Shown here piece after piece: positions 49,363 through 59,881 of a DNA stretch of 64,000 nt. Both the position numbers and the translations under genes were made by a program. The stretch's first letter is position 1. The number at the start of each line of letters is the position of its first letter. Below the pieces are notes generated by a model that saw only the letters and a list, made by a program, of their open reading frames with translations, did no database searches and was not told the origin of the DNA. Origin of the DNA: Rubrobacter tropicus (GTDB taxonomy: Bacteria; Actinomycetota; Rubrobacteria; Rubrobacterales; Rubrobacteraceae); assembly GCF_011492945.1 (NCBI RefSeq), contig NZ_CP045120.1:124001-188000 (forward strand), in the 5' to 3' direction.

Positions 49363-49650
49363 GTGAAGCACTCCGGAACCAGGCCTGTGACGGGGCCCCG
49401 GAGCGAAACCGAGGAAGGTCGGGCGGTTAGACGAACACAACGAGACGGGAGCCCAGACCCCTTGCTGGCCTCGGTTAGACCGGGCGTGCAGGCACGCTCC
49501 GGCATCCTCCGGATACCCTACCGCCGATCCCATCCCTGGCGCCCCACGCCGCTACTCCTGCGGGCGCGCGTGTCCGCTCACCTCCCGGCGGGACCGCCGG
49601 CGCCGGCGAAGCCCGCTCCAACCCGCGCAAGGACGGCGTCCGAACGATGA
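49363..49650 (+). CDS. Doubtful 95-aa Arg/Pro-rich frame
   Basis: A GTG at 49363 just downstream of the strong promoter opens a frame whose stop overlaps the next ATG (ATGA). The composition (Arg, Pro, Ser, Thr) is unlike its neighbours and it has no clear ribosome binding site. It could be a near-leaderless gene, or the region may be a leader RNA. Confidence 0.3.
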   Translation: MKHSGTRPVTGPRSETEEGRAVRRTQRDGSPDPLLASVRPGVQARSGILRIPYRRSHPWRPTPLLLRARVSAHLPAGPPAPAKPAPTRARTASER

Positions 49651-50162
49651 CCACCGCGCCCCCCGCGACCGCCGCGTCTTCGGACCCCCGCCCTCGGGAG
49701 CAACACGACCACATGAACGCCGTTGAAATACTCGAAGCCGCTCGCGAGGCGGGCCTCAAGCTGGCCCTCAACGGCGACAAGGATGCCGTGATGGCCGGCC
49801 CGCCGCACAAGATTACCGCGCGCATCCGGTCCTCCATCCGCCGCAACAAGGACGAGCTGATGCGCCACCTGCTCTTCCGGGAGGCCGCGGCTTACCTCCA
49901 GAAAAAGATCACCGACCGGGGGATGATTATGGACGAGGCCGCCGCGACGGCCGCCTGCAACGTTTTCTCCCAAGACCTCGGGGCGTTCGACGACGCATGG
50001 CGCACCAAAGATATAGACGCCTTCAAGGCTTTCCTCAGAGAACGTGTGAGGGACGCGGGGCGTACCCTGGCCGAGCACCAACGGGTCGCGCCGCCCCCCA
50101 GATCCTCGGGGGAGTCCCCCGATCATCCCAACTTACAGCAGACCCTCCCGGAGGCCTCGTGA
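49647..50162 (+). CDS. Unknown 171-aa protein with TubC-like segment
   Basis: Residues 23-75 (MNAVEILEAAREAGLKLALN then a helix ending SIRRNKDELMRHLL) resemble the small TubC-type docking fold seen in plasmid-encoded proteins and in polyketide synthases. The remainder is helical (AAAYLQKKITDRGMIMDEAA). It is coupled by an ATGA overlap upstream and by a one-base overlap to the nuclease gene. Function unknown. Confidence 0.65.
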   Translation: MTTAPPATAASSDPRPREQHDHMNAVEILEAAREAGLKLALNGDKDAVMAGPPHKITARIRSSIRRNKDELMRHLLFREAAAYLQKKITDRGMIMDEAAATAACNVFSQDLGAFDDAWRTKDIDAFKAFLRERVRDAGRTLAEHQRVAPPPRSSGESPDHPNLQQTLPEAS

Positions 50163-50821
50163 TGACTAGTATTTTCGGGCGATCCACTAGGGCGCGCGCC
50201 CTCTTGCTCTGGCTCGCGCTGGCCGCGTGCCTCTCCCTGGCCCCCGGCTGCTCGCCGTCCGCGGGTCGGGACGTCGCCGCCGACGCCCTCGACGCCGTCC
50301 GGCAGGCCGCCTCCTCCGGCGGCGCCGAGGCCGGCGGACGGCCGTCCAGCTCGGAGGAGGTCCGCGTCACCCGCGCGGTCGACGGGGACACCCTCGAGAT
50401 CTCCCCCGGCGTCGCCGGCCATACAGACGTCAGGCTCATCGGCGTGGACGCCCCCGAGTCCGCCATCCCTGGAGAAACGCCCCAGCCCCTCGGCAAAGAC
50501 GCCGCCGCGTTCACCTCCCGCGCCCTCGAAGGGCGAACGGTCGTACTGACCTTCGACGAGGAGCTCGTCGATCCCTACGAGCGCTTGCTCGCCTACGCCC
50601 GGCTCCCGAAGGCCGACCACACCCACAACGAGCGCCTGGTCCGCCTCGGCCTCGCCCAGGTGGCGATCTTCGAGCCCAACGACGCCCTCGCGGACAAGCT
50701 CTACGCCGACCAGGACGCCGCCAGGAGCTCGGACTCCGGCATCTGGTCGCTGCCCGCCCGCCAGCACTGTCAACTCGCCGACCGCGGCAACGGCATCGGG
50801 GAAGGTTCGATCGCATGCTGA
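50162..50821 (+). CDS. Staphylococcal-nuclease-like lipoprotein
   Basis: A 219-aa thermonuclease homologue. The N-terminus has a signal sequence with LSLAPGC as a lipobox, suggesting export and lipid anchoring. The SNase fold shows VTRAVDGDTLEI, VRLIGVDAPES, and DPYERLLAYA, which together carry the usual Asp, Arg and Glu catalytic residues. The enzyme would degrade extracellular DNA or RNA. It starts at an ATG overlapping the previous stop. Confidence 0.88.
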   Translation: MTSIFGRSTRARALLLWLALAACLSLAPGCSPSAGRDVAADALDAVRQAASSGGAEAGGRPSSSEEVRVTRAVDGDTLEISPGVAGHTDVRLIGVDAPESAIPGETPQPLGKDAAAFTSRALEGRTVVLTFDEELVDPYERLLAYARLPKADHTHNERLVRLGLAQVAIFEPNDALADKLYADQDAARSSDSGIWSLPARQHCQLADRGNGIGEGSIAC

Positions 50822-50883
50822 CCACAACCGCCGCCCGCCGCGACCCGGAACGCCCCGACCGTGACCATCCGCCCCGCCCGGCA

Positions 50884-50924
50884 CGGCGCGGGGCCGTCCC
50901 GATAGGCCAAACGGCCCCGCGCCG
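50884..50924. terminator. Perfect 14-bp stem hairpin upstream of nrdJ
   Basis: CGGCGCGGGGCCGT and ACGGCCCCGCGCCG pair fully around a 13-base loop. It lies 62 bases after the nuclease stop and 18 before nrdJ, so it could be a terminator or an attenuator in the nrdJ leader. Confidence 0.6.
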
Positions 50925-50942
50925 GACCCGCAGAAAGGGAAG

Positions 50943-53300
50943 GTGATCCCCTTGGAGACCGAACGCCACGACGCCCAGGTATTCGAGGTCAACGACAACG
51001 CGCTCGCCGTCCTCGAGAAGCGCTACCTCAAGAAGAACGAGGCGGGCGACGCCATCGAGGAACCCATAGACATGTTCCGCCGCGTCGCCGGCACCATAGC
51101 CGAGCCCGAGGTGGACTTCGGAATAGCCCGCGGCCTCTCCGGCGACGAGGCCCGGGCCGTCTCCGAGGAGCAGGAGAAGCGCTTCCTTGACCTCATGCTC
51201 TCCCGGAAGTTCATGCCGAACTCTCCCACCCTGATGAACGCCGGTCGCGAGCTCGCCCAGCTCTCCGCCTGCTTTGTCCTCCCGGTGGAGGACTCCATAG
51301 ACTCGATCTACGACACCCTCAAGCACCAGGCCGTCATCCACAAGTCCGGCGGCGGCACGGGTTTTGGCTTCTCGAAGCTCCGGCCGAAGGGCGACGTCGT
51401 CTCCTCGACGATGGGGGTCTCTTCGGGTCCCGTCTCCTTTATGAGCGTCTTCGACGCCTCGACGGACAAGATCAAGCAGGGCGGGACGCGGCGCGGGGCG
51501 AACATGGGCATCCTCAGGGTGGACCACCCGGACATAGAAGGGTTCATCACCTGCAAGCACGACAACGACGAGATCAACAACTTCAACATAAGCGTCGCGA
51601 TCACCGACGAGTTCATGGAGAGGGCCCGCGCCGACCTCGACTTCGACCTCAAGAACCCCCGAGACGGCGAGGTCATAAAGACCGTAAGGGCGCAGGACCT
51701 CTTCCGTAAGATCGTCGAGGGGGCGTGGCTCAACGGCGAGCCGGGGGTGGTCTTCATAGACAGGATCAACGCCGACAACCCCACGCCGCAATTTCCCATA
51801 GAAGCCACGAATCCTTGTAGCGAGGCCCACCTCCCCGCCTACGATTCGTGCAACCTCGGCTCCATCAACCTGGAGCGCTTCGTGCTCACGGCCGCCCAAG
51901 CCGAAGAGAAGATCGCCCAGAACGGCCGAGCGTCCGGACCCCGCGCGCCGAAGGAGACCGACTGCGTGGACTGGGTCGCCCTCAAGGAGTGCGTGAGAAC
52001 GGCCGTGCGGTTCCTGGACAACGTGATCGAGCAGAACGACTACCCCCTGGCGGAGATCGCGCGCATGAGCCGCGGCAACCGCCGCATCGGCCTCGGCGTG
52101 ATGGGCTTCGCCGACGCCCTCGTAAAGCTCGGGGTTCCTTACGACTCCGGGCGGGCGCTGGAGCTCGCGAACTCATTTATGGAGTTCATCGACCGGCACG
52201 CTTGGGAGGCCTCCCGAGACCTGGCCGAGGAGCGCGGCGTCTTCGCCAACTGGGAAGGTTCCGTGCACAACGCCCGCGACGGCCGCCGCGTTCGGAACGC
52301 CACGGTGACGACCATCGCCCCGACCGGCACGATCTCCATGATCGCCGGCTGCTCCGGCGGCATCGAGCCGCTCTTCGCGGTCGCCTTCCTGCGCCGCCAG
52401 GCCGGTATGGAGATGCCCGACGTCAACCCCGAGTTCGTCAAGATCGCCAAGGACCGCGGCTTCTACTCCGAGGATTTGATGCGATCGGTCGCCGAGCACG
52501 GCTCCGTGCGCGACGTCGAGGAGGTGCCCGAAGACGTCCGCCGCGTCTGGGTCACGAGCCAGGAGATCTCCCCCGAAGACCACGTCAATATGCAGGCGGC
52601 GTTCCAGAAGCATACCTCGATGGGGATCAGCAAGACCATCAACCTGCCGAACGAGGCGACCATCCAGGACGTCGCCGACGCCTACACCCTCACCTACTCC
52701 GTGGGCTGCAAGGGCGTGGCCCTCTACCGCGACGGTTCGCGCGACGAGCAGGTGCTCTCGAAGGGGAGCGCCCCGACCGCCGCTCCCAGCTCCGGAGAGA
52801 ACCCTCCGGCCGCCGTCGCCCACGGCCCCTCGCTGGCGGAGGACAGGAACGGCCGACCGAACCTGCTGCCCGGCGTGACCAGGAAGCTCGCGACCGGCCA
52901 CGGCCCGATGTACGTGACGATGAGCGACGACGAGTTCGGCGCCAGGGAGTGCTTCGTGATCCTGGGCAAGCCCGGTGGGACGGCCGCCGCTTTCTCCGAC
53001 GCCCTGGGCCGCATGATCTCGCTGGCGCTCGCCCACGGCGCCTCCCCCGCCAAGGTCGTCCACCAGCTGCGCGGCATCCAGGACGGCCACAGGGTCGGAT
53101 TCGGGGAGAACACGGTGCTCTCCGTCCCCGACGGCGTGGCGAAGGCGATGGCCGAGCACTACCTGAAGGCCGAGGACGGCGCGTCCGCGGGGCAGCTCGC
53201 CTTGCCGGTCGCGGGCGCCTGCCCCGACTGCAGCGCGGGCCTCAGCCGCGAAGAGGGCTGCGTCGTCTGCCACTCCTGCGGCTACTCGAAGTGCTCGTGA
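50943..53300 (+). CDS. nrdJ: Adenosylcobalamin-dependent ribonucleotide reductase
   Basis: A 785-aa class II ribonucleotide reductase that converts ribonucleotides to deoxyribonucleotides using a cobalamin radical. Visible motifs are NSPTLMNAGRELAQLSACF, SGGGTGFGFSKLRPKGD, the thiyl-radical Cys C292 in NPCSEAHLP, and TIAPTGTISMIAGCSGGIEP. A C-terminal TSCPD-like domain (KLATGHGPMYVTMSDDE) precedes a final zinc-ribbon end (CPDCSAG, CHSCGYSKC). NPCSE instead of the common NPCGE is an unusual variant. Start is the GTG at 50943, or the TTG at 50952 with GGAAGG eight bases before it. No B12 riboswitch was found upstream. Confidence 0.93.
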   Translation: MIPLETERHDAQVFEVNDNALAVLEKRYLKKNEAGDAIEEPIDMFRRVAGTIAEPEVDFGIARGLSGDEARAVSEEQEKRFLDLMLSRKFMPNSPTLMNAGRELAQLSACFVLPVEDSIDSIYDTLKHQAVIHKSGGGTGFGFSKLRPKGDVVSSTMGVSSGPVSFMSVFDASTDKIKQGGTRRGANMGILRVDHPDIEGFITCKHDNDEINNFNISVAITDEFMERARADLDFDLKNPRDGEVIKTVRAQDLFRKIVEGAWLNGEPGVVFIDRINADNPTPQFPIEATNPCSEAHLPAYDSCNLGSINLERFVLTAAQAEEKIAQNGRASGPRAPKETDCVDWVALKECVRTAVRFLDNVIEQNDYPLAEIARMSRGNRRIGLGVMGFADALVKLGVPYDSGRALELANSFMEFIDRHAWEASRDLAEERGVFANWEGSVHNARDGRRVRNATVTTIAPTGTISMIAGCSGGIEPLFAVAFLRRQAGMEMPDVNPEFVKIAKDRGFYSEDLMRSVAEHGSVRDVEEVPEDVRRVWVTSQEISPEDHVNMQAAFQKHTSMGISKTINLPNEATIQDVADAYTLTYSVGCKGVALYRDGSRDEQVLSKGSAPTAAPSSGENPPAAVAHGPSLAEDRNGRPNLLPGVTRKLATGHGPMYVTMSDDEFGARECFVILGKPGGTAAAFSDALGRMISLALAHGASPAKVVHQLRGIQDGHRVGFGENTVLSVPDGVAKAMAEHYLKAEDGASAGQLALPVAGACPDCSAGLSREEGCVVCHSCGYSKCS

Positions 53301-54389: not shown

Positions 54390-55037
54390 CTAACCCCTAC
54401 CCACTAGAGCGCGCCTCGCGCCCACGATCTCCTCCACAGCCTCACCGGCAACCCTCTCGTAGGAGCGCCATGCCTCCTGCGCCCTGCTGTTCGGGAACTC
54501 GTAGACGAGCCTACCCGTCTGCGTGGCCGTGTCGAAGGCCTGCCTCCTCCGGATCTCGGGACCGAAGACCGGCTGCCCCGTAGCCTCGAGCTGCTCCCGC
54601 CGCTCCTGCGCCTGCGTGTTCCACCAACCCACCATCGTGAGCAGCACCCTGTAGCTCGCATTCATCTTGCGCAGTCGGGCCAGAAACCCCATCAACGGCC
54701 GCATCGACAGCCCCTCCGCCGTCGTGGGCACCACGATCAGGTCCGAACCCCTCACCGCGGCCCGAAGGTCCACGTCGCTGGGCCGCCCCTGCGAGTCGAA
54801 GACGACGTTCTCGTAGCGCTGCCATCCCCCGCCGTCTCCCAAACCCACCACATCGAACGGCCACGGCTCCAGGTCCGCCGGACGCGCCGCCCGCCAATGG
54901 ACAAGGCTCTGGTTGGGGTCCGCGTCCACCACGACCGTAGTCCCCTCCCCGAAGCGAGCCCCAAGCGCCGCCCCGAGGTGCATGGCCGTCACGCTCTTCC
55001 CCACGCCGCCCTTGTATCCCATCACGTTTATCCTCAC
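54390..55037 (-). CDS. parA: ParA-type partition ATPase (short, ParF-like)
   Basis: A 215-aa ATPase with deviant Walker A at residues 7-15 (GYKGGVGKS), switch region VVVDADPNQS and DLIVVPTTAEGLSM. The length and the lack of an N-terminal HTH put it with type Ib partition ATPases. The GTG at 55037 has GGGAGGG upstream and gives the usual start just before the P-loop. The ATG at 55079 would add 14 residues. It segregates the plasmid together with the ribbon-helix-helix partner. Confidence 0.93.
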   Translation of the reverse strand: MRINVMGYKGGVGKSVTAMHLGAALGARFGEGTTVVVDADPNQSLVHWRAARPADLEPWPFDVVGLGDGGGWQRYENVVFDSQGRPSDVDLRAAVRGSDLIVVPTTAEGLSMRPLMGFLARLRKMNASYRVLLTMVGWWNTQAQERREQLEATGQPVFGPEIRRRQAFDTATQTGRLVYEFPNSRAQEAWRSYERVAGEAVEEIVGARRALVGRG

Positions 55038-55094
55038 GCTCGTGCCCTCCCGCGCCCGCCCGATCCGTACCCATGCCATCTTAAAGTTCAGCAC

Positions 55095-55122
55095 ACGATA
55101 AATCAACATTACGAAAATGTAA
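55095..55122 (-). promoter_or_regulatory. Predicted parA promoter
   Basis: TTACAT and TATCGT are separated by 16 bases on the minus strand. The -35 element lies inside the inverted repeat at 55108-55136, consistent with autorepression. Confidence 0.5.
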
Positions 55123-55136
55123 TTCATTTTCGTAAT
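55108..55136. promoter_or_regulatory. Operator/centromere-like inverted repeat
   Basis: ATTACGAAAATG and its exact reverse complement CATTTTCGTAAT are separated by five bases. The region is AT-rich in a GC-rich background and lies upstream of parA. It is a likely binding site for the ribbon-helix-helix partner. Confidence 0.65.
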
Positions 55137-55450
55137 TCAATTATTGTCTCTAGGGTTCTCCAACGGGGCCGTCGGCCCGCCGCCCCGGCCACCCGCGCTC
55201 CCCCGGTTGTCCTGCAGGCCCCATGCCCGCTCACACCTTCCGCGCCCGCGGGGGGGCCTCCACCACCACTTCAAGGGGCTATCGACGTCTCAGAGAACCC
55301 CTCATCGTCCTTACAGGAGAAATTTGGCTGCGATCAGGGAGAGGTTAGGCGGCCCGACGAGCCCGTCCCGGCCGCGAGCCGGAAGAGCGCTTTGTGGATG
55401 GCCGCTCCGACAAGCCACCATAGACCACCGCCCCAGGCACTCTTGATTCC

Positions 55451-55483
55451 CATTTACGTAAATTAGATACATTTTCGTAATTC
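55451..55483. repeat. Second cluster of CATTTTCGTAAT-like repeats
   Basis: CATTTACGTAAATT and CATTTTCGTAATTC are direct repeats 19 bases apart. ATTTACGTAAAT within the first is a perfect palindrome. They share the core of the parA inverted repeat, 330 bp away. The stretch 55137-55450 between the two clusters holds no convincing gene. Confidence 0.55.
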
Positions 55484-55489
55484 TGATAT

Positions 55490-55872
55490 GTCGCGTGGCG
55501 CCGGCCTCGCTGGGGGAGAAGACGCATGGTGCGGCCCTTGTCGGCGACGGCGCGCTGCACGCCCTGGCGGAGCCACCAGGTCGCGTAGGTGGAGAAGCGC
55601 AGTCCCTTCTCAGGGCCGAACATCTCGACCGCCTTAATGAGACCTATGTTGCCCTCCTGGATAATGTCCTCGAAGGGCAGTCCCTGGCCCCGGTAGCGCT
55701 AGGCGACGTGGACCACCAGCCTCAGGTTGCGCTCGATCAGGGTGCGCTTCGAGCGCGCGCAGCCCCAGCCCAATGCGCGGGCCAGCCGGCGCTCCTGGTC
55801 TGCGGTGAGCAATTCGCCCCTGTCGATGCGGGCGAGCTAGTCGTCGATCACAGAGGAGGGCGGAGCGCTCAT
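55490..55872 (-). pseudogene. Truncated sigma-70 factor with two in-frame amber codons
   Basis: Read from an ATG at 55872, the frame encodes sigma-70 region 1.2 to 2.4 ([68 protein letters not shown]). Codon 12 (55837-55839) and codon 58 (55699-55701) are TAG, where relatives have Tyr and Lys. Similarity ends after RTMRL near 55520, close to the repeat cluster at 55451-55483. Regions 3 and 4 are missing. The start overlaps the upstream gene (ATGA), suggesting it was once an operon member. Confidence 0.8.
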
Positions 55873-57893: not shown

Positions 57894-59345
57894 TCAGGTT
57901 TCCCTCTCGACCGTGCCGACCACGATACCGATCTCCGAAGTGGGGGAGAGGATGCCGTGCAGCTCCTCGTCGAGAACGTCCTTGAACCTTGTACGAATGT
58001 ACTCCTCGGCGAAGGTGTTGGGCACCGCGACGGTCAGGGTGTCGTCTTCCAGTCCGACAGCGGTCACGCTTTCGAACCACACCCTCAGGCTGGAGACGTC
58101 GATGCGGTCAGCGGCGCGTTCGAGGACTTGCTCCCAGACCCGCGCCGCGCCCTCGTGGGGGGTGAAAGTAACCTGCTCGTCCTCGCCGCCGTCGCCGGCG
58201 TCTCGCCCGTTGGCCGGTTCGAGAGGCGCGACGTCCGCCTCGTGCAACCTGCGCTGGGGGGGCTCGATCGGCAGCGGCAGGCGGTCGCCGATGTACTTCT
58301 TGAGCCATGCACCGGGGCTGCGCACGTTCTTCTGGTAGGGGAGGGCCTCCACGTAGAAGCGGCACGCCTCCGCGCCCTGCTCGTGGATAAGCGTCCGGGC
58401 CACGTTCGCCCAGACCCCGTTGCGCAGCAGCGCCCGGTAGACCCCACTCTGCTCCGGTCCCCATGACCGGTCGAGGTAGCTTCTCGCCTCGACGAACTCC
58501 GCGGCCACGCGGTAGTGGACGCGGTTGCCCTCGTAGACCACGGCTGCGAGGAAACCCCGGTCTTTCATCTCCTTGTGGGAGGGCTCGAGCTTCTCCTTTA
58601 CCTTCGACGGCTGCTTGTAGCTGGCGGGCATCCCTATGTGGTCCTTGAGGACCATGATGTCCTCGCTCCACGTCAGGCCATCGCCCCGCTTGTAGTCGAT
58701 GCGCCTGTACAGGCTCTTCGCGTAGCCCTTTGTCAGGGATAGGCAGAAGTTGAGATCGAGCTGCTTTATGTGGCCGTGCGACAGGCTCCGGACGAGGATC
58801 TCGTCGAACCTCAGCTTGTGGCGCTCCGTCGCCCGGCCGTAGCGGTCCTCGTTTGCCTCGAACTCGACCCGCCACGGTATGAAGTGCGCGCTGCCGTAAG
58901 CCTTCTTGTCCTCCCGGTAGAACGCGTCGATCGCGTCCATGAGCGTCTTGTTGATCTTGAGTATCGAATCCCTGACCCTACGGTAATTCTTCCCGTTGTC
59001 CTTTAGGCCCAGGATGTTCAGGACCTCGTAGAGCGTGAACGGTATCCTCCCGTCCTCCGGTATCCCTCCGAGCTTTTCCTTGGCCAGCGCGTGCATCGCC
59101 AGGTACACATCCCCGTCGAAGACGTCGAGCTCGCCGTACTCTTCGGGTGGTCGCCATCGCCACATGCGCTGGCCCACGCTTCCATCGGCCTTCCTGTACT
59201 CCTGGATGTACTCCCGGTATCCGTTCTTGCCGACACTGACCCGGCCGCCAAACAGGGGAGGTTCCTCGAGGTTGAGCTCGACGTTGACTACATCCGGTGC
59301 CCGCTCCCGATCCGTACGCGCCAGCGCTTTGCCCGCTTCAGCCAC
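57894..59345 (-). CDS. repA: Replication initiator RepA with C-terminal DnaA-domain-I-like module
   Basis: A 483-aa plasmid replication initiator. Residues 30-330 match the RPA/RepA winged-helix initiators (MWRWRPPEEYGELDVFDGDV, IPFTLYEVLNILGL, LDLNFCLSLTKGYAKSLYRR). After an acidic linker, the last 80 residues (from VWEQVLERAADRIDVSSLRV, about residue 400) resemble the N-terminal domain of DnaA, which contacts the DnaB helicase. The protein should bind the adjacent iterons and load helicase. The GTG at 59345 has GGGAGG six bases upstream and is preferred over a TTG at 59366. Confidence 0.9.
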   Translation of the reverse strand: MAEAGKALARTDRERAPDVVNVELNLEEPPLFGGRVSVGKNGYREYIQEYRKADGSVGQRMWRWRPPEEYGELDVFDGDVYLAMHALAKEKLGGIPEDGRIPFTLYEVLNILGLKDNGKNYRRVRDSILKINKTLMDAIDAFYREDKKAYGSAHFIPWRVEFEANEDRYGRATERHKLRFDEILVRSLSHGHIKQLDLNFCLSLTKGYAKSLYRRIDYKRGDGLTWSEDIMVLKDHIGMPASYKQPSKVKEKLEPSHKEMKDRGFLAAVVYEGNRVHYRVAAEFVEARSYLDRSWGPEQSGVYRALLRNGVWANVARTLIHEQGAEACRFYVEALPYQKNVRSPGAWLKKYIGDRLPLPIEPPQRRLHEADVAPLEPANGRDAGDGGEDEQVTFTPHEGAARVWEQVLERAADRIDVSSLRVWFESVTAVGLEDDTLTVAVPNTFAEEYIRTRFKDVLDEELHGILSPTSEIGIVVGTVERET

Positions 59346-59374
59346 CCAATCCCTCCCTGTTAACAAGACAGAAC

Positions 59375-59402
59375 ATTAAACACAAACAGAACATCATGTA
59401 AA
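59375..59402 (-). promoter_or_regulatory. Predicted repA promoter
   Basis: On the minus strand TTTACA and TTTAAT are separated by 16 bases in an AT-rich patch between repA and the iterons. RepA bound to the iterons could repress it. Confidence 0.5.
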
Positions 59403-59441
59403 CGGATCGGAAAGATACAAAACCGTGTGTTTGCAGGCGTT

Positions 59442-59450
59442 TTGTCCGCA
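59442..59450 (+). promoter_or_regulatory. Possible DnaA box
   Basis: TTGTCCGCA differs by one base from the TTNTCCACA consensus. It abuts the iteron array. A single near-match can occur by chance. Confidence 0.3.
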
Positions 59451-59453
59451 GAA

Positions 59454-59609
59454 TTTCCCCCAGAGGTCGGTAAAGTCCCCCGCGGCGCTCGGTAAAGTCC
59501 CCCGCAGGGGTCGGTAAGTTTTCCCCGAGGAGTCGGTAAAATTCACCCCGCAGGGTCGGTATTGTTTCCCCACGGGCTCGGTATTCGTTCCCCGAAAGAT
59601 CGGTATTAG
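59454..59609 (+). repeat. Seven tandem iterons (origin of replication)
   Basis: Seven copies of a unit with the core TTTCCCC-N4-6-GGTCGGTA follow one another. The TCGGTA cores start at 59467, 59489, 59511, 59533, 59556, 59578 and 59600, so the spacing is 22 bp with one 23-bp step, about two helical turns. They lie upstream of repA, where an initiator would bind to start replication. The left copies end in TAAA, the right copies in TATT. Confidence 0.9.
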
Positions 59610-59721
59610 CTGGAGACGGCCAGTCAAAGCTCGCGGTTCGCAGATATCTTGTACTCAACGGCAACCGTACCGCCCGAAACCGTATTCGTACGGCCGTTTT
59701 TCCGGCTTCGCGGTCACTGCC

Positions 59722-59766
59722 TTTCCCCGTGTGGTCGGTATTCTTTCCCCATGGGGTCGGTATTCG
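59722..59766 (+). repeat. Two further iterons
   Basis: TCGGTATTC cores at 59735 and 59757, 22 bp apart, each preceded by TTTCCCC, in the same orientation as the main array. Confidence 0.85.
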
Positions 59767-59817
59767 CATTTTCTTGTTGCCAGCCGGACCGGCCGCATGT
59801 CTCAACAGGCCTTGTCG

Positions 59818-59881
59818 TTTCCCCACAGGGTCGGTATTCGGTTTGACAACAAGCGGCCGTTCCCTATGGGGTCGGTATTCC
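59818..59881 (+). repeat. Two dispersed iterons
   Basis: Cores at 59831 and 59872, 41 bp apart, the second with a slightly altered left half (TTCCCTATGGGG). The total is eleven iterons over 430 bp. Confidence 0.8.

Follow-up and report, generated by a model that had tools for sequence, protein, structure and literature searches.

The plasmid initiator RepA ends in a genuine DnaA domain I, which occupies its last ~80 residues. Its gene lies in the window (the whole 64-kb stretch of DNA analysed here), which is part of a 205,328-bp contig (C2); the other contig of this 4.58-Mb genome is a 4.38-Mb chromosome. RepA is an iteron-type (RPA/Rep_3-type) initiator of the 205-kb plasmid. Its frame is open from 57894 to 59366 on the reverse strand, with a GTG start at 59345 giving a protein of 483 amino acids and a TTG at 59366 giving 490. 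The GTG codon is the likelier start because GGGAGG is located 6 nt upstream of it. Residues are numbered here according to the 490-residue TTG frame (minus 7 for the GTG start). The gene and its parts are:

57894..59345 (-): repA, plasmid initiator of the RPA type whose C-terminus is a DnaA domain I (open reading frame; Pfam RPA, Rep3_N and DnaA_N)
58575..59144 (-): RPA region, residues 75-264, within the DNA-binding core of tandem winged helices (PF10134; Foldseek)
58287..58457 (-): helical segment, residues 304-360, common to the RepA group, before the variable C-terminus (alignment; AlphaFold helices)
58155..58286 (-): flexible linker, residues 361-404, comparable to DnaA domain II (pLDDT; dN/dS)
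57912..58154 (-): DnaA domain I-like module, residues 405-485 (Pfam, phmmer, AlphaFold, VIA-align/Foldseek)

A DnaA domain I on an iteron-type initiator

Pfam identified only three families in RepA: RPA (PF10134, residues 75-264, 36.2 bits against a cut-off of 27), Rep3_N (residues 96-222, above its curated cut-off) and DnaA_N. Neither the AAA+ domain III nor the DNA-binding domain IV of DnaA was found in the protein, and HTH_36 gave no Pfam match up to an E-value of 1. The AlphaFold model (mean pLDDT 75.7, from a 13-sequence alignment) has a tandem winged-helix core which resembles domains 2-3 of RctB (Foldseek E-value 5e-10) and RepE54 (about 1e-5). The core is followed by the four helices of the shared segment (304-315, 320-330, 332-344 and 351-360) and by the linker, where pLDDT falls below 50 at residues 372-397. 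The nearest relatives of RepA are on Rubrobacter plasmids, from R. marinus (48% identity) and from R. radiotolerans and R. indicoceani (31-34%). RepA itself had no match in PHROGs, and nothing was found in a scan of genome contigs with the single RepA protein or in a scan of viral contigs.

The DnaA_N match (PF11638) covers residues 409-467 with an E-value of 1.7e-10 (40.9 bits against a cut-off of 24.6), and all good phmmer matches of RepA in the PDB are DnaA domain I structures (4tps, 3.8e-8; 8btg, 9e-7; 2e0g, 2.9e-4). In the AlphaFold model the module follows the low-confidence linker as a compact domain (block pLDDT mostly 81-92; 85.0 when modelled alone), and its elements are arranged helix-helix-strand-strand-helix-strand, which is the order of DnaA domain I. 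Both VIA-align and Foldseek placed DnaA domain I first. The module superposes on B. subtilis DnaA domain I (4tps) with a Z-score of 11.9 and an rmsd of 1.8 A over 81 residues, on that of H. pylori (2wp0) with Z 10.5 and on that of E. coli (2e0g) with Z 8.9. The first-pass annotation, made from the sequence alone, had likened the last 80 residues of the initiator to the N-terminal domain of DnaA and proposed a structural comparison with domain I, and the family match and the fold both bear out this likeness. A chance match is ruled out by Pfam, by phmmer against the PDB and by the structure comparison. We also considered a DciA-like domain, which has a related fold (V. cholerae DciA, Z 8.3; unrelated proteins score about 7 or less), but its score is below those of DnaA domain I, and the sequence settles the choice in favour of the latter.

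Several residues known from DnaA are present in the module. W430 corresponds to W25 of E. coli and W27 of B. subtilis and is a tryptophan in all 21 modules compared, while N450 (E. coli N44) is kept in 20 of 21. F452 is equivalent to E. coli F46 and B. subtilis F49, a position where phenylalanine occurs in 9 of the 21 modules and mostly valine or threonine in the others. These three residues are on helices 2 and 3. On helix 1, the DnaA self-association face, W411 occupies the position of E. coli W6 (tryptophan in 19 of the 20 modules with a residue there). Y456 is found at the position of E. coli W50. The glutamate E21, a DnaB contact of E. coli domain I that is not universal in the family, is absent; the module has S426 there, and serine is likewise the residue of B. 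subtilis DnaA, of the host protein and of almost all DnaA proteins from Rubrobacteria. The module is under purifying selection, with a dN/dS of 0.10 in one close pair of relatives (0.06 for the core and 0.37 for the linker).

Two other genes were noted near repA. A ParA-like ATPase with the motif GYKGGVGKS (54390-55127, reverse strand), about 3 kb from repA, is likely the partition gene. On the same strand, at about 55345-55850 of the window, lies part of a gene for a primary-type sigma factor, interrupted by in-frame stops. In the R. marinus plasmid, an RpoD/SigA gene located a few kb from repA is intact.

Capture and possible exchange of C-terminal modules

At its start the host DnaA has ...VWAEVLDRASEQIDVSSLRVWFEGIRPVDVREDRLEISVPNTFAKEYIESRF, and RepA has ...VWEQVLERAADRIDVSSLRVWFESVTAVGLEDDTLTVAVPNTFAEEYIRTRF. 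RepA modules share up to 60% identity with Rubrobacteria DnaA (45% between the module of this RepA and its own host DnaA), while Rubrobacteria DnaA shares at most 39% with any other DnaA compared. In a phylogeny of 71 domains (84 columns, with four divergent RepA modules omitted and a bootstrap that had not settled), the RepA modules group together as a single clade (98/87) next to the DnaA of Rubrobacteria (94/89), and the two are jointly separated from 27 other DnaAs (99/93). The identities and the domain tree rule out capture from a distant or Firmicutes DnaA. Judging from these sequences, a single ancestral capture from a Rubrobacteria-type dnaA would be the simplest reading. A fresh capture by the lineage of this plasmid from its own genus is not the best tree, and grouping the module of this RepA with the DnaA of its own genus gave p 0.44 in an AU test, with which later re-capture or gene conversion of the module would be compatible. 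Modules are slightly nearer to the DnaA of their own host than to those of shuffled hosts (p 0.004), a value that we do not use as evidence because the pairs are not independent.

RPA initiators are present in 19 of the 39 genomes of the Rubrobacteria class (29 proteins in total), while a sample of 269 other Actinomycetota genomes yielded none. Of the 28 initiators that do not run off the end of a contig, 21 have the module at their C-terminus according to searches with an HMM of Rubrobacteria DnaA domain I and with Pfam; three of the matches, all from one genome, are weak. A phylogeny of the RepA core, built on 383 columns, intermixes initiators with and without the module, and its well-supported branches force at least four changes; G013C323, which has the module, and G012C9, which lacks it, are sisters with support of 100/99. 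Because the modules themselves form one clade, the best fit is a single gain with later losses or swaps. Two frame changes divide the repA of the R. marinus plasmid (NZ_CP045122.1; L006:2480-3896) into an ORF for the core and a detached ORF for the module, the latter named 'DnaA N-terminal domain-containing protein' in RefSeq; this may be a sequencing error, decay or a real split.

Two other endings are found on the seven initiators without the module. Five of them (L051, L054, L056, L069 and L073) end in a common domain (...LESLPYDQYSRF...RYYLSLEGDLYLYVG...), which occurs on two separate core lineages. Four of these were compared by phmmer and match with E-values of about 1e-15 to 1e-57, and the fifth was assigned by reading the sequence. 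No Pfam family was found in the members of this group that were scanned, nor any credible NCBIfam family. The remaining two, G025C19 (L046) and G008C326 (L064), end in RRREGYEWIFGS and KRRQEGYEWLFGEGS respectively, which match the tail of the host DnaD, RR(R/Q)EGYEW(L/I)FG.

The DnaD-like protein of the host is encoded on the chromosome about 50 kb from dnaA (PF07261, E-value 4.3e-12; TIGR01446 over its cut-off) and ends in RRREGYEWLFGEEG. Directly after it comes the gene for a DnaI/DnaC-like ATPase (NF005992 over its cut-off; primosomal DnaI model, E-value 1.8e-30):

G000:C1, about 49,650-51,240 (L002:432-2022): DnaD-like and DnaI/DnaC-like gene pair; class-wide loci L145-L174

A DnaD-like protein was found in 35 of the 39 class genomes, and the tail RRREGYEWLFGE in 23 of the 30 loci read. 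DciA was not detected above its cut-off in any of the 39, the host included. On this distribution, Rubrobacteria, a deep actinobacterial lineage, appear to have a Firmicutes-like DnaD/DnaI-type loading pair near oriC rather than DciA. The host DnaB helicase (G000:C1:1374411-1377947) is encoded in one frame of 1390 amino acids, in which the matches to its family fall into three separate pieces; this looks like the result of inteins.

The Y-x-W pattern in GYEWLF is common to the tail of B. subtilis DnaD, where F226, Y227, N228 and W229 bind the co-loader DnaB and are essential (PMC10201431). The presence of the host DnaD tail in the place of the module, in two sequences, suggests that these C-termini are swappable modules that mimic host proteins. 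Somewhat more tentatively, since we put it a little short of an even chance, the C-termini may have been copied from successive host loading proteins, namely DnaA domain I (21 initiators), the DnaD tail (two) and an uncharacterised domain (five). They would then have been swapped between cores by recombination, and the plasmids would enter the DnaA-DnaD-DnaI pathway at different steps. We know of no earlier report of a DnaD tail on plasmid initiators (here two) beside a host-type DnaA domain I (here 21).

The plasmid origin and the probable role of the module

Beside repA, at 59451-59880, there are 11 iterons with the core TCGGTA, mostly 22 bp apart:

59351..59450: candidate unwinding element, the most A+T-rich stretch near the iterons, between them and repA (A+T 62% and 52% in two 50-bp steps)
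59451..59608: cluster of seven direct repeats of ~22 bp (TCGGTA at 59467, 59489, 59511, 59533, 59556, 59578 and 59600)
59719..59765: two more iterons, 22 bp apart (TCGGTA at 59735 and 59757)
59815..59880: two outlying iterons (TCGGTA at 59831 and 59872)

DnaA boxes are found in the origins of several studied iteron plasmids, and RK2 also has them. Here, no site within one mismatch of the box TTATCCACA was found in the 1 kb upstream of repA, in agreement with the near absence of boxes already noted in the first-pass annotation; the only nearby site with one mismatch is at 58382, inside repA. Perfect boxes are absent from the 64-kb window and from the scanned rest of the 205-kb plasmid, while in the same genome there are 14 between dnaA and dnaN. 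By our own estimate from base composition, fewer than one would be expected by chance in the whole plasmid, so boxes are not maintained on it, rather than avoided. The annotation had also taken the missing boxes to fit the fusion. This link is not supported, as none of the 13 scanned relatives without the module (from Rubrobacteria, Deinococcota, Nitrospirota and Planctomycetota) has a perfect box upstream of its rep gene either; among scanned relatives with the module, only one has such a box. Because the absence is shared with module-less relatives, it is no argument for DnaA-independence or for the fusion.

To judge by its family and the anatomy of this region, the tandem winged-helix core would bind the 22-bp iterons upstream of repA and open the nearby A+T-rich stretch. 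The flexible linker would display the C-terminal domain I, captured from a Rubrobacteria-type dnaA, and the module would show at the plasmid origin the DnaA surface that recruits helicase-loading proteins (W430, N450 and F452). By analogy with B. subtilis, its likeliest first contact would be the host DnaD-like protein, which, together with the neighbouring DnaI/DnaC-like ATPase, would load DnaB; DnaA bound to boxes in the origin would then be dispensable. We give this course of events, with a DnaD-like contact first and no need for DnaA on boxes, about an even chance, while recruitment of the host helicase machinery as such is the best-supported role of the module. DnaD recruitment in B. subtilis requires residues T26, W27 and F49 of DnaA domain I (PMC10201431), the last two of which correspond to W430 and F452 of RepA. 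The two module-less relatives with a DnaD tail also count in favour of this model, as they carry a different element facing the loader at that position. Against it we count the presence of phenylalanine at the F46/F49-equivalent position in only 9 of 21 modules, the conservation of the helix 1 self-association face (W411), the lack of boxes also in relatives that have no module, and the seven relatives that manage without it.

The helicase loading proposed in the first-pass annotation was to proceed through binding of DnaB by the module. Its wider sense, recruitment of the loading machinery, is the part that stands, while direct contact with DnaB is probably wrong for this host. In E. coli, domain I contacts DnaB through E21 and F46 (PMC5448010), and F452 and N450 of RepA match E. 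coli F46 and N44. Furthermore, TrfA-44 of RK2 recruits the Pseudomonas helicase by itself (PMC4980987). However, the E21 position is S426 in RepA, as it is serine in B. subtilis and nearly all Rubrobacteria DnaA, and binding of domain I to the helicase had been shown for E. coli only (PMC5448010). A DnaD contact is likelier because the host has a DnaD-like and DnaI/DnaC-like pair and no recognisable DciA. Direct binding is therefore unlikely, although it ranks first among the alternatives.

Next in rank, and likewise improbable, is a module that docks host DnaA through helix 1 and brings it to the box-less origin, in which case replication would be DnaA-dependent. Without boxes DnaA would need some other way in, domain I dimers are conserved in Actinomycetes (PMC13270200), and the W6 position is retained as W411 in almost all modules. 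Nevertheless, the invariant residue, W430, is on the partner-facing side opposite helix 1, and there are relatives with neither boxes nor module. We regard as very unlikely a purely regulatory module, dispensable for loading, that would compete with DnaA for DnaD-like or other domain I partners and so link initiation on the plasmid to that on the chromosome. Domain I is indeed a hub for regulators such as DiaA and SirA (PMC5448010; PMC10201431), and the module is missing from some relatives, but its replacement by the host DnaD tail in two of them argues for loading rather than regulation. That the module is a functionless leftover, as its terminal position and the frame changes parting it from the core in R. 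marinus might suggest, is scarcely credible given its dN/dS of 0.10 in the close pair and its retention throughout the class, in 21 of the 28 relatives that could be tested.

Should domain I be all that a plasmid initiator requires from DnaA, loader recruitment would be the DnaA function that these plasmids cannot dispense with, and the module would be a natural probe of how the helicase loader is recruited. With the sister initiators that have a DnaD-like tail instead, the order of steps in the loading pathway of this deep actinobacterial lineage could be tested directly.

Comparison with known initiators

The conserved W, N and F surface and the fold of the module are those of DnaA domain I in Rubrobacteria and B. 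subtilis, with the difference that RepA carries the domain at the C-terminus of an initiator lacking an AAA+ domain, not at the N-terminus as in DnaA. The closest parallel in architecture is RepA of the B. subtilis plasmid pBS72, whose replicon is also on a pHT01-type vector. It too has a DNA-binding part in front and a DnaA domain I at the very C-terminus (DnaA_N, E-value 3.7e-13), but its DNA-binding part is HTH_36, unlike the RPA/tandem winged-helix core of the Rubrobacter protein. Relatives of the pBS72 type with the same architecture are found on plasmids of Paenibacillus, Cytobacillus, Terribacillus, Niallia and Bacillus. The initiator of Brevibacillus phage Jenst (L131:1667-2710) likewise combines HTH_36 with a C-terminal DnaA domain I (E-value 1.8e-9), and the fusion therefore also occurs in phages. 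Modules of the pBS72 group share 27-39% identity with B. subtilis DnaA and 22-28% with Rubrobacteria DnaA, and look like a separate capture because they are nearer to the former. Fusion of DnaA domain I to initiators of mobile elements thus probably arose at least twice, in Bacillota and in Rubrobacteria, on DNA-binding cores that are unrelated. A C-terminal DnaA domain I was already known on pBS72-type initiators; what is new is an apparently independent fusion in another initiator family and another phylum, with signs of module exchange.

Titok and colleagues are said to have found in 2006 that pBS72 needs host loader proteins while DnaA is dispensable, and reportedly they pointed out that a domain of its RepA is like the helicase-binding domain of DnaA. 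A pBS72 derivative has elsewhere been described as thought to be DnaA-dependent (PMC5615212). The RepN origin of pLS32 has been used in B. subtilis as a DnaA-independent origin and still needs DnaD and DnaB (PMC10201431).

In its tandem winged-helix core, RepA is like RctB of V. cholerae chromosome 2 and RepE of the F plasmid. The core is also related to that of RK2 TrfA: TrfA Pfam matches were found in relatives of RepA, several of which are named TrfA by RefSeq. TrfA-44 carries out helicase loading in Pseudomonas (PMC4980987). Unlike RepA, TrfA uses an N-terminal extension and no DnaA domain I, as far as the work of Zhong et al. (2003) is related in PMC4980987. The staphylococcal pSK41 Rep (RepA_N family) is like RepA a plasmid initiator that resembles a host primosomal protein, but it resembles DnaD and not DnaA, and it belongs to an initiator family unrelated to that of Rubrobacter RepA (PMC5703833).
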